Shown: one piece after another, positions 5,332-31,003 of the stretch
Position numbering within the stretch: position 1 is the first letter of the stretch
Layout of the letters: every line of letters starts with the position of its first letter
Assembly: GCA_030827165.1 (NCBI GenBank)
Contig: JAURFB010000023.1
Span: 1-33,292 of the forward strand
DNA from: Marivivens sp.
Lineage (GTDB): Bacteria; Pseudomonadota; Alphaproteobacteria; Rhodobacterales; Rhodobacteraceae
Direction: 5' to 3'
Length of the DNA stretch: 33,292 nt
Position numbers and translations under genes: made by a program
Notes under the pieces: model-generated
Told to the model about the DNA's origin: nothing
Database searches by the model: none
What the model saw: the letters and a program-made list of their open reading frames with translations, nothing else

Positions 5332-5439
5332 GGCTTTCAGTTCCTGGCGCGGCTTGGAAAAACCTGCTGCGGTCTATATGTCGGCGAGTTGACGGCAAGG
5401 TAACGTTCTGCCACCCGCCATCAACAGAAACGCAACGTC

Positions 5440-6393
5440 ATGACCGCATTGCAGACCGAAGTGCTAAGTTCTGACGCCGCCGGACTTGCCCGTGCGGCCT
5501 GTCTGCTTGCGGAAGGGGGTCTTGTCGCGTTTCCGACCGAGACGGTCTATGGCCTTGGCGCCGATGCTTGCAACGATCTGGCTGTCGCAAAGATCTATGA
5601 GGCCAAGGGCCGGCCGAGCTTCAACCCCCTGATCGTGCATCTGCCCGATCTCGAAGCGGCCCGCTCCTTGTGTGAATTCACCCCCGATGCCGAACGTCTT
5701 GCGGATGCCTTCTGGCCCGGTGCGCTGACCCTCGTCCTGCCGCTGAGGCAGGGTTCCGGCGTCTCGCGGCTGGTGACGGCGGGGCTTGATACCTTGGCGA
5801 TCCGTGTGCCGGATCATCCGGTCGCACAGGGGCTGTTGCGGGCCTTCGGCGGGCCGGTCGCGGCGCCTTCGGCCAATCCTTCGGGCAAGATCAGCCCAAC
5901 CCGTGCCGCTCATGTGACGGCCGGCCTCGGCGGGAGGATCGAGGCGGTCGTGGATGGCGGTAACTGTGGCGTGGGTCTGGAATCGACGATTATCGGCTGC
6001 CTGCCGCGGCCAACCCTTTTGCGGGCCGGTGGCCTGCCGGAAGAGGCCATCGAGGCTTGTCTGGGCTATCCGCTGGCGCAATCGCTCGGGGCTACCGACA
6101 ATCCTGTGGCCCCAGGCCAGCTGGAATCCCATTATGCGCCGGCTGGCAAGGTTCGGCTCGACGCGGATCGTGCCCAGCCCGGAGAGATCCTGCTTGGGTT
6201 CGGCCCCGTGGTTGCCCCGATCAACCTGTCGCCGTCAGGTGATCTGGTCGAGGCCGCTTCGCGGCTTTTTGGGTGCCTGCACGAGCTTGATGCCATGGGG
6301 GCCGAGCGAATTGCCGTTTCGCCAATCCCCGATCACGGCCTCGGTCGGGCGATCAACGACCGTCTTCGCCGCGCCGCGGCACCGCGCCCATGA
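5440..6393 (+). CDS. tsaC: L-threonylcarbamoyladenylate synthase (Sua5/YwlC/TsaC type)
   Basis: The 317-residue protein makes threonylcarbamoyl-AMP from threonine, bicarbonate and ATP, the first step of t6A37 modification of ANN-decoding tRNAs. The N-terminal YrdC-type domain shows FPTETVYGLGADA at residues 31-43, the KGR motif at 56-58 followed by PSFNPLIVH, and the APSANPSGKISPT motif. The length beyond about 200 residues, with the linker-like ESHYAPAGKVRL and a C-terminal GLGRAINDRLRRA helix, marks the longer Sua5 form with a second domain rather than the short TsaC form. It stands alone on this strand. Its TGA abuts the TGA of the convergent gene at a TGATCA palindrome. Confidence 0.93.
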   Translation: MTALQTEVLSSDAAGLARAACLLAEGGLVAFPTETVYGLGADACNDLAVAKIYEAKGRPSFNPLIVHLPDLEAARSLCEFTPDAERLADAFWPGALTLVLPLRQGSGVSRLVTAGLDTLAIRVPDHPVAQGLLRAFGGPVAAPSANPSGKISPTRAAHVTAGLGGRIEAVVDGGNCGVGLESTIIGCLPRPTLLRAGGLPEEAIEACLGYPLAQSLGATDNPVAPGQLESHYAPAGKVRLDADRAQPGEILLGFGPVVAPINLSPSGDLVEAASRLFGCLHELDAMGAERIAVSPIPDHGLGRAINDRLRRAAAPRP

Positions 6394-29006: not shown

Positions 29007-29966
29007 CTAGTTGCCAGCGATGAGCTCGAACTGCCGCACGATCACCTCGGCCTGCTTCATCGAGGCAATGTCGATCAGCTTGCCCTTGTAGGTCGTGGCC
29101 CCAGCGCCGGCCTTCTTGGCCTCTTCCATCGCCGCAAGGATCGCGCGGGCGTCGGCTACGGCCTCGGCTGAAGGGGTGAAGACCTCGTTGGCAATTGCCA
29201 CCTGCTTGGGGTGGATTGCCCATTTGCCGACCATACCAAGCGTGGCAGACCGCAGCGCTTGGGCGCGGAACCCTTCATCATCCGAGAAATCCCCGAAGGG
29301 GCCGTCGACCGGCAAGACCCCATGGGTCCGGCAGGCGGCGACGATGGCGGTCTGGGCCCAATGCCACGGGTCCGACCAGTATTTCTGCCCCTCGCGGAGC
29401 ATATAGTAATTCTCCTGCGTGCCGCCGATGCCGGTCGTCGCCATGCCCATGGAGGCCGCGAAATCGGCCGCCCCTAGGCTCATCGCCTGAAGGCGGGGCG
29501 AGGCGGCGGCGATTTCTTCCACATGGGCGATGCCGGCGGCGGATTCGATAATGACCTCGAAGCTGATCGGTCTGATCCGACCCTTGGCGCGCTCGACCGC
29601 AGTCACCAGTGCATCAACAGCATAGACATCGGCCGCGCAGCCCACCTTGGGGATCATGATCTGATCGAGCCGGTCGGACGCGTTTTCCAACAGGTCGACG
29701 ACATCGCGATACCAATAGGGGGTATCAAGGCCATTGATCCGCACCGAAAGCGTTTTGCCGCCCCAATCGATATCGCCAATCGCCTCGATGATGTTCTTGC
29801 GGGCCTGCGCCTTGTCATCGGGCGCGACCGAGTCCTCTAGATCGAGGTTGATCACATCCGCCGCACCGGCCGCCATCTTTTCAAAGATCGCCGGTCGCGA
29901 ACCGGGGCCGAACAGCTGGCAACGGTTGGGACGGGCGACAGGAGCGGGCTGGATACGGAAGGACAT
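29007..29966 (-). CDS. mcl1: L-malyl-CoA/beta-methylmalyl-CoA lyase
   Basis: A 319-residue CitE/HpcH-family lyase closely resembling Rhodobacter Mcl1 from the first residues (MSFRIQPAPVARPNRCQLFG). Mg/CoA-site segments include VINLDLEDSVAPDDKAQARK, FEVIIESAAGIAHVEEIAA with the metal-binding Glu, and SLGAADFAASMG with the metal-binding Asp, then MVGKWAIHPKQVAIANEVF. In Rhodobacter the enzyme cleaves beta-methylmalyl-CoA to glyoxylate and propionyl-CoA and handles malyl-CoA in the ethylmalonyl-CoA pathway of acetate assimilation. AAGG precedes the ATG. A promoter with an internal palindrome lies 48-76 bases upstream, in the region shared with the divergent transaminase gene. Confidence 0.96.
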   Translation of the reverse strand: MSFRIQPAPVARPNRCQLFGPGSRPAIFEKMAAGAADVINLDLEDSVAPDDKAQARKNIIEAIGDIDWGGKTLSVRINGLDTPYWYRDVVDLLENASDRLDQIMIPKVGCAADVYAVDALVTAVERAKGRIRPISFEVIIESAAGIAHVEEIAAASPRLQAMSLGAADFAASMGMATTGIGGTQENYYMLREGQKYWSDPWHWAQTAIVAACRTHGVLPVDGPFGDFSDDEGFRAQALRSATLGMVGKWAIHPKQVAIANEVFTPSAEAVADARAILAAMEEAKKAGAGATTYKGKLIDIASMKQAEVIVRQFELIAGN

Positions 29967-30013
29967 GATCGGCCTTGTAATCTTGTTGCGTGGAAAGGTC
30001 TGGGTTTTGGTAG

Positions 30014-30042
30014 ATTATTGCGCACATTGCTGCAAGTGCGAA
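30014..30042 (-). promoter_or_regulatory. Predicted mcl1 promoter
   Basis: Reading leftward, TTCGCA (30042-30037) and AATAAT (30019-30014) are 17 bases apart, matching the sigma-70 consensus at 4 of 6 and 5 of 6 positions. Transcription would begin near 30007, about 40 bases before the mcl1 ATG. The spacer and -35 box are occupied by the palindrome listed separately, which suggests a regulator binding on the core promoter. Confidence 0.45.
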
Positions 30043-30059
30043 TTTGCAGGCGCAGCAAA
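30021..30059. promoter_or_regulatory. Candidate operator: 20-bp palindrome plus TTTGC-N7-GCAAA
   Basis: Positions 30021-30040 form a near-perfect dyad: CGCAC, an unpaired A, TTGC, a central T, GCAA, GTGCG. Immediately beside it TTTGC (30043-30047) and GCAAA (30055-30059) form a second inverted repeat with seven bases between. TTTGCAAA-type half-sites are what I recall for the ScfR/RamB/PccR regulators of short-chain acyl-CoA metabolism, so a regulator of that class is plausible. The identity of the binding protein is inference; the dyads are directly visible. Confidence 0.45.
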
Positions 30060-30139: not shown

Positions 30140-31003
30140 ATGCCCCGCACCGTCTATGTCAACGGCAGCTACCTGCCCGAAGCCGAAGCCACCGTTTCGA
30201 TCTTTGATCGCGGTTTCCTGATGGCCGACGGGGTTTACGAGGTGACGTCGGTTCTCGGCGGCAAGCTGATCGATTTCGGCGGCCACGCCGCGCGGCTTGA
30301 GCGGTCGCTCACCGAGCTCGACATGGCAAGCCCGGTGACGATGGACGCGCTTCTCGAAATCCACCGCGAGCTGGTTCGTCTCAACAGCATCGACGAGGGG
30401 CTGATCTATCTCCAGATCACCCGCGGCAATCCCGGCGATCGGGATTTCGCCTTCCCCGATCCGGAAAAGACCCCCTCGACCATCGTTCTTTTCACCCAAG
30501 CCAAGCCCGGCCTTGCCGACAACCCGACCGCCAGGAAGGGCCTCAAGGTCATCAGCATCGACGACATCCGCTGGGGCCGCCGCGATATCAAGACGGTGCA
30601 GCTTCTCTATCCCTCGATGGGCAAGATGATGGCCAAGAAGGCCGGAGTCGATGACGCGTGGTTTGTCGAGGAAGGCGAAGTGACCGAGGGCACCTCGAAC
30701 AACGCCTATATCGTCAAGGGCGGCAAGATCATCACCCGCGATCTGTCGAGCGATATCTTGCACGGCATCACCCGCGCCGCCGTTCTGCGCTTTGCCCGCG
30801 AGGCGCAGATGGAGGTTGAAGAGCGGTCCTTCACCGTGGCCGAGGCGCAGGGCGCGGACGAGGCCTTCATCACCTCGGCCAGCGCCTTTGTGCTGCCGGT
30901 TGTCGAGATCGACGGCGTGGCGCTGGGCAATGGTGTGCCCGGCCCCGTCGCCACCCGCCTGCGCGAGATCTATCTCGACGAGAGCCGCAAAGCGGCGGTC
31001 TAG
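30140..31003 (+). CDS. D-amino-acid transaminase-like class IV aminotransferase
   Basis: A 287-residue fold-type IV PLP aminotransferase starting MPRTVYVNGSYLPEAEATVS. Visible landmarks: SIFDRGFLMADGVYEVTSVL (residues 20-39), the PLP lysine in RRDIKTVQLLYPSMGKMM (Lys151), and EEGEVTEGTSNNAYIVKGGK with the cofactor-binding Glu and phosphate-contact Thr/Ser. This pattern is closest to D-alanine/D-amino-acid transaminase, though branched-chain and aminodeoxychorismate-lyase members share it. The GGAGGAG ribosome site a few bases before the ATG at 30140 is strong. It diverges from mcl1 and converges on the DODA dioxygenase gene at a shared CTAG. Physiological substrate not evident from context. 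Confidence 0.88.
   Translation: MPRTVYVNGSYLPEAEATVSIFDRGFLMADGVYEVTSVLGGKLIDFGGHAARLERSLTELDMASPVTMDALLEIHRELVRLNSIDEGLIYLQITRGNPGDRDFAFPDPEKTPSTIVLFTQAKPGLADNPTARKGLKVISIDDIRWGRRDIKTVQLLYPSMGKMMAKKAGVDDAWFVEEGEVTEGTSNNAYIVKGGKIITRDLSSDILHGITRAAVLRFAREAQMEVEERSFTVAEAQGADEAFITSASAFVLPVVEIDGVALGNGVPGPVATRLREIYLDESRKAAV

Follow-up and report, generated by a model that had tools for sequence, protein, structure and literature searches.

Two putative operators of 14 bp, each quasi-palindromic and set three helical turns apart, overlay the sigma-70-type promoter of mcl1 in Marivivens sp. Sequence comparison suggests, with a probability of about 0.6, that they form a repressor-type operator pair of an ethylmalonyl-CoA (EMC)/acetoacetyl-CoA regulon, whose regulator would be a tetramer, probably of the ScfR type. 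The window, by which we mean the whole stretch of DNA analysed, is contig JAURFB010000023.1, positions 1 to 33,292 (33,292 nt).

Results

The conserved mcl1 promoter

In the window, mcl1 (29007..29966, minus strand) encodes a malyl-CoA/beta-methylmalyl-CoA lyase of 319 aa, which carries PF03328 and matches the malyl-CoA lyase of PDB entry 4l9y with E 1.2e-184. All but two of the 198 genomes of the family (196) contain a match to this protein, in some cases a weak, distant one. The upstream regions of 110 mcl1 loci of Rhodobacteraceae, minus six duplicates, gave 104 distinct promoters for footprinting. On the mcl1 strand these promoters share, in order, TGCTGCRnCYGCAAAA (box A), CTTGCR, CGCAAYWTWMTAnC, about 20 poorly conserved bases, CGnAAYWTCMTTRC, the ribosome-binding region and the start codon.

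The promoters have the sequence features of the alphaproteobacterial sigma-70 type: TTG and TA are each present in 104/104 promoters, their distance is 23 in all 104, making the 17-bp spacer invariant, and there is no T at -7. In the window the -35 element is TTGCAG (30030..30035, minus strand) and the -10 element TACCAA (30007..30012, minus strand), so read from sequence the mcl1 promoter is of the sigma-70 type, TTGCAG-N17-TACCAA, with a transcript start predicted near 30000. An earlier note on this DNA had placed the -35/-10 pair at TTCGCA-N17-AATAAT (30042 to 30014, minus strand). Those letters are there, but not as a conserved promoter; in the 104 promoters the invariant TTG and TA sit 7 bp downstream of them. 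In the available part of PMC8407463, most alphaproteobacterial promoters analysed lack the T at -7, and CarD is proposed as a helper. The mcl1 promoter resembles the sigma-70 promoters described there in its TTG at -35 and missing T at -7, and differs in its two overlaid boxes; we infer that mcl1 also depends on CarD.

Box 1 (CGCAATAATCTACC; 30009..30022, minus strand; -22 to -9) is a putative operator that lies between the -35 and the -10 and reaches the -10, and box 2 (CGCAACAAGATTAC; 29977..29990, minus strand; about +11 to +24), likewise putative, lies in the leader, 32 bp from box 1. Over the 104 promoters the two are 31 bp apart in 95 and 32 bp apart in 9, or about three helical turns, and both follow one 14-bp quasi-palindrome, CGnAAYWTnMTnnC. 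On the forward strand, each of the two box matrices gives its second-highest score at the other box. The two boxes are also where both matrices peak on the reverse strand, shifted by one base, as expected for a quasi-palindrome GNAA-N5-TTNC. By these scans the two boxes share a single motif. A weaker third peak overlaps the -35 region in three of the four matrix scans. The mcl1 pair is the best in the window, with a score of 30.6 against 16.6 for the next, mcl1 scores being not independent of a matrix that was built from mcl1 promoters. That second-best tandem lies at 5399-5444, with a spacing of 32. An early idea of a TTGC-N10-GCAA operator was dropped, its TTG being the -35.

The previously noted dyad

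The earlier note had instead proposed as operator a 20-bp dyad at 30021..30040, CGCAC-A-TTGC-T-GCAA-GTGCG, and had named its conservation upstream of mcl1 in relatives as the check. The letters (CGCACATTGCTGCAAGTGCG) are present and overlap the promoter. The dyad is complete, however, in only 1/104 distinct mcl1 upstream regions, that of the window itself, and its absence from the other 103 overturns the proposal on the note's own terms. In two close relatives (L005 and L034) the left part is kept and the right arm lost. With an extra base on one side, the arm pairs lie off a common axis, the outer arms centring between bases 10 and 11 and the inner TTGC/GCAA on base 11. Symmetric pairing about the 20-bp centre holds at 6/10 positions, a value equalled or bettered at 970 of the 33,273 20-bp positions in the window, and such a scan is unsuited to offset arms, which are suited by arm-wise pairing over the 104 promoters. 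Counted in that way, the inner arms are fully paired in 4/104, and the outer arms pair at four or more of five positions in 2/104. Mean pairing is 2.46 of 9, no better than the 2.38 ± 0.07 obtained with permuted right halves (139 of 1000 permutations as high). That the dyad itself is the operator is extremely improbable; by this comparison it is a chance feature of one genome.

Box A and the divergent gene

The flanking TTTGC-N7-GCAAA (30043-30059) fared better, since its letters are present and overlap a truly conserved element, box A, of which it is one face. Box A (TGCTGCGCCTGCAAAT; 30042..30057, minus strand; -57 to -42) lies upstream of the -35, with a TGC-to-GCAA distance of 6 in 84/104 promoters. 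Its TGC/GCA half-sites resemble those of PhaR, whose sites are defined by the spacing YGCR-N-YGCR in the accessible text of PMC12542648; in mcl1 the half-sites are separated by N2 (84/104), one base more than the N1 of PhaR. PhaR was rejected as the mcl1 box A protein on this one-base difference. At phasin-type loci of the family, YGCR-N-YGCR was found in 23/30 and the N2 form in 11/30, which is roughly the level of chance. The ecm promoters (L177-L206) carry a strongly conserved TGCCGCRnCGCRGCGAA, which has the PhaR-like N1 spacing and abuts TTGACA upstream of the -35. This ecm element hints at a possible second input from storage-polymer (PHB) status.

On the other side of the intergenic region, a D-amino-acid-transaminase-like gene (30140..31003, plus strand; NF005209, 363.8 bits, cut-off 320) diverges from mcl1. 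Joint control of this gene, which the earlier note had considered, does not hold as a general rule: the transaminase is directly divergent in 6 of the 103 loci whose upstream sequence spans 500 nt or more, and the boxes are kept in the other loci. These six (the window, L005, L034, L083, L103 and L105) belong to more than one lineage. A further 5 of the 103 have partial transaminase matches at greater distance. The divergent transaminase is not part of the operator story.

The tandem at other pathway genes

A first, stricter pattern gave 11 hits in 61 genomes, at least 10 of them at mcl1 coordinates and the eleventh in G009. The strict tandem (31-bp spacing, up to 2 mismatches) returned 79 matches in 61 genomes, as against 9 for the reversed pattern, at least 31 of the 79 lying at listed mcl1 coordinates. 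When the box was loosened (up to 1 mismatch), there were 317 hits, spread over 121 of 149 genomes, compared with 14 in 11 genomes for the reversed form. In this looser count a palindromic pair may score on both strands.

Among the 48 strict matches outside listed mcl1 coordinates, 40 were fetched, and these stood at ecm (11), phaB (7), MaoC (phaJ-like; 2), acs (2), ccr (1), phaA (1), prpE (1), pntA (1) and a MerR/acyl-CoA-dehydrogenase unit (1), with no pathway link in 13/40. Forty matches to the looser pattern, hand-picked among those listed outside known mcl1, ecm and phaB coordinates, fell at phaB (11), MaoC (10), ecm (8), mcl2 (2), prpE (1) and mcl1 (1), with no pathway link in 7/40. Most target names come from translations read by eye and from the coordinates of the protein matches listed. 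For ecm, phaB, MaoC and ccr a single representative apiece was checked against Pfam and/or NCBIfam, the MaoC assignment of L147 comes from its neighbourhood, and the genes called mcl2, acs, prpE, pntA and phaA are putative, being named by resemblance. Several of the fetched tandem sites were flagged within predicted ORFs, which are probably 5'-extended or antisense.

Rare or single hits occurred at pntA (L128), acs (L141 and L151), prpE (L164 and L289) and the MerR/acyl-CoA dehydrogenase unit (L144); these hits, upstream of further acetate, propionate or NADPH genes, may reflect chance or regulon members peculiar to some lineages. Two candidate regulators encoded beside sites were set aside: the MerR protein at L144 was seen once only among 80 fetched hits, and at L287, where a TetR gene adjoins the site, the site suits the MaoC gene on the opposite side.

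The pair was also scored upstream of ecm and phaB, at test loci that were the 30 best protein matches for each and not a random sample. Scored initially with an mcl1-only matrix at spacings of 31 and 32, the pair reached 20 (a cut-off chosen in this analysis) upstream of 16/30 ecm and 10/30 phaB genes, while the mean score of five shuffles reached it in 0/60 regions; 14/30 ecm and 20/30 phaB regions scored below 20. With the spacing left free between 15 and 60, 31 was the best in 21/30 ecm and 15/30 phaB regions. The mean best score at 31 was 18.6 for ecm and 14.1 for phaB, whereas spacings outside 31-32 averaged 3.9 and 2.7.

As in mcl1, box 1 of ecm falls within the -35/-10 gap and box 2 downstream (seen in the 25/30 regions that have the TTGAC anchor). 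These promoters read TTGACA, an 18-base gap and TA (T 21/25, A 19/25), the conservation of TTGAC being by construction, since it anchored the alignment. In the phaA-phaB intergenic regions (L207-L236), phaB box 1 often lies inside a GC-rich inverted repeat, for example GGGCGCAACAATGTTGCGCCC; this hairpin could be the phaA terminator, or could double as operator and terminator.

In the window's own genome the pair scored 30.6 at mcl1, 26.7 at phaB, 17.8 on the sense strand and 21.4 on the other strand at ecm, and 23.7 on one strand and 14.6 on the other upstream of ccr. Since the same pair, 31-32 bp apart, occurs at ecm, ccr, phaB, a MaoC (phaJ-like) hydratase gene and mcl2, it would mark a regulon that runs from acetoacetyl-CoA through the ethylmalonyl-CoA pathway. 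The retention of the tandem at EMC genes across much of the Rhodobacteraceae points to one shared regulator.

Might the boxes belong instead to the basal promoter or the leader RNA, as discriminator, leader or sRNA site? Box 1 overlaps the -10, box 2 lies in the leader, and the T at -7 is absent as in CarD-type promoters, all of which would suit such a role. Against it, the motif occurs twice, is near-palindromic on both strands and keeps a rigid 31-bp distance, and the pair is also found at genes with differing core promoters. We regard this account as highly improbable beside that of a protein operator.

Candidate regulators

ScfR proteins are the leading regulator class in this analysis. 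PF09856 matches were found in 184/198 genomes; a closer look at 27 genomes gave a strong match in 14 and a weak relative in many. The strong ScfR protein adjoins pccB in 4/5 neighbourhoods (in G088 it lies elsewhere), and hence was named PccR. Carter and Alber reportedly described in 2015 PccR sites at pccB with the motif TTTGCAAA-N4-TTTGCAAA. Such sites share with the mcl1 boxes GCAA/TTGC half-sites and a CoA-related pathway, and the presence of PccR tracks the boxes. The likeness of half-sites had been pointed out in the earlier note, as had the difference in spacing, and both remarks are borne out by the conserved mcl1 boxes: their half-sites are GCAA/TTGC-like, and their spacing is unlike that of TTTGCAAA sites, which makes a distinct site type the right call. 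No TTTGCAAA was found in the mcl1 intergenic region of the window.

A PccR orthologue (an XRE/ScfR protein of about 465 aa, usually encoded with pccB, pccA and mcm) might have, in addition to its sites at pccB, another type of site by which it controls EMC genes. Boxes scoring at least 20 are present in 48/49 mcl1 promoters from genomes with a strong ScfR protein and in 7/15 without (2 weak, 6 lost; n=64), 14 ScfR-poor and 20 control promoters having been selected by ScfR status and low mcl1 identity. Among mcl1-carrying genomes, 108/118 with the protein and 4/13 without it have tandem hits (Fisher 2e-6, uncorrected for phylogeny). ScfR absence requires 13 changes on the mcl1 tree, of which 5 are forced by well-supported branches, the tree being poorly resolved (12/61 inner branches starred). 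The sister pairs G088/G152 and G118/G102, which are well supported, differ in ScfR as well as in boxes, but G001/G066, also well supported, differs in ScfR and not in boxes. Moreover, the near-complete genomes G184 and G066 lack any ScfR match and yet retain the mcl1 pair, G050 and G048 keep ecm pairs without PccR, and G040 has PccR yet has lost the pair.

The pccB promoters themselves also speak against a PccR role at mcl1. Six of the seven pccB-like promoters that we read carry TTTGC/TTTGCAAA sites (in L319 exactly TTTGCAAA-N4-TTTGCAAA) and not the tandem pair, so that within the family TTTGCAAA belongs to pccB promoters and a different box to mcl1. Upstream of pccB, two TTTGC-type boxes were seen 32 bp (L313, L324) or 40 bp (L315, L323) apart, near whole helical turns. 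In the part of PMC10370305 available, deletion of the PccR homologue of P. denitrificans left growth and the ccr/icl reporter patterns unchanged. Taken with the genomes that keep boxes without PccR, these points make a PccR orthologue a rather unlikely answer.

RamB offers a close architectural parallel. According to the accessible text of PMC10370305, RamB of P. denitrificans requires two near-identical boxes with an 18-bp spacer, and by our count on the oligo given there these boxes lie 32 bp apart, start to start. The class 2 RamB arrangement and the mcl1 pair (31 or 32 bp in 104/104) are alike in this tandem geometry and share an acetate/EMC physiology, the oligomeric state of RamB responding to CoA esters of the pathway. 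It is also reported there that without RamB, on acetate, EMC transcripts rise 8- to 15-fold, as they would if RamB, where present, bound the pair directly and repressed EMC genes. The box sequences differ, however (GACA-N4-TTAC for RamB, GNAA-N5-TTRC here), and so does the position: the RamB site, an activating one, is found 82 bp upstream of ms, whereas the mcl1 boxes lie over the -10 and the leader. In the model of that paper, as far as available, EMC products act on RamB, which fits an indirect RamB effect. Most genomes, furthermore, have one strong ScfR match, which lies in the PccR cluster where neighbourhoods were inspected. Direct repression by RamB is thus very unlikely.

Discussion

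Promoter and tandem-box architecture are of known kinds, and the earlier expectation that the mcl1 promoter holds conserved regulatory elements common to other ethylmalonyl-CoA genes is supported by both the footprint and the tandem hits. We found no description of the mcl1-type box or of its gene set in the literature searched (open-licence PMC papers). In the repressor-type reading that we favour, a tetrameric, probably ScfR-like regulator would occupy both boxes from one face of the DNA and obstruct RNA polymerase; a CoA thioester from C2 assimilation would then release the regulator. MtPrpR is a CoA-binding tetramer, according to the part of PMC6765138 available. A protein sitting in the -35/-10 gap and over +11 to +24 would stand in the way of polymerase, which speaks for a repressor. 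We infer this sign from box position, and an activator may work from these positions. In P. denitrificans, Ccr and Icl reporters rise on a shift to acetate (PMC10370305, in the portion available).

A wider proposal, which we put forward tentatively and would not yet bet on, is a master operator for acetyl-CoA assimilation across the Rhodobacteraceae. One regulator, possibly not of the ScfR class, would act through quasi-palindromes of 13-14 bp in a rigid 31-32 bp tandem at phaA/phaB, the MaoC hydratase gene, ccr, ecm, mcl1, mcl2 and, in some genomes, acs, prpE and pntA.

In the available papers on how the EMC pathway is switched on in Rhodobacteraceae, PccR is linked with pccB and RamB with the glyoxylate cycle, and a direct EMC regulator would have to account for the rise of EMC transcripts without RamB. 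An operator common to the pathway genes would serve as bait for isolating that regulator. It would also allow targets to be predicted in genomes of the family and be a source of control elements with which acetate or PHB flux could be engineered. If the master operator is true, the partition of C2 carbon between storage polymer and growth would be under its control.
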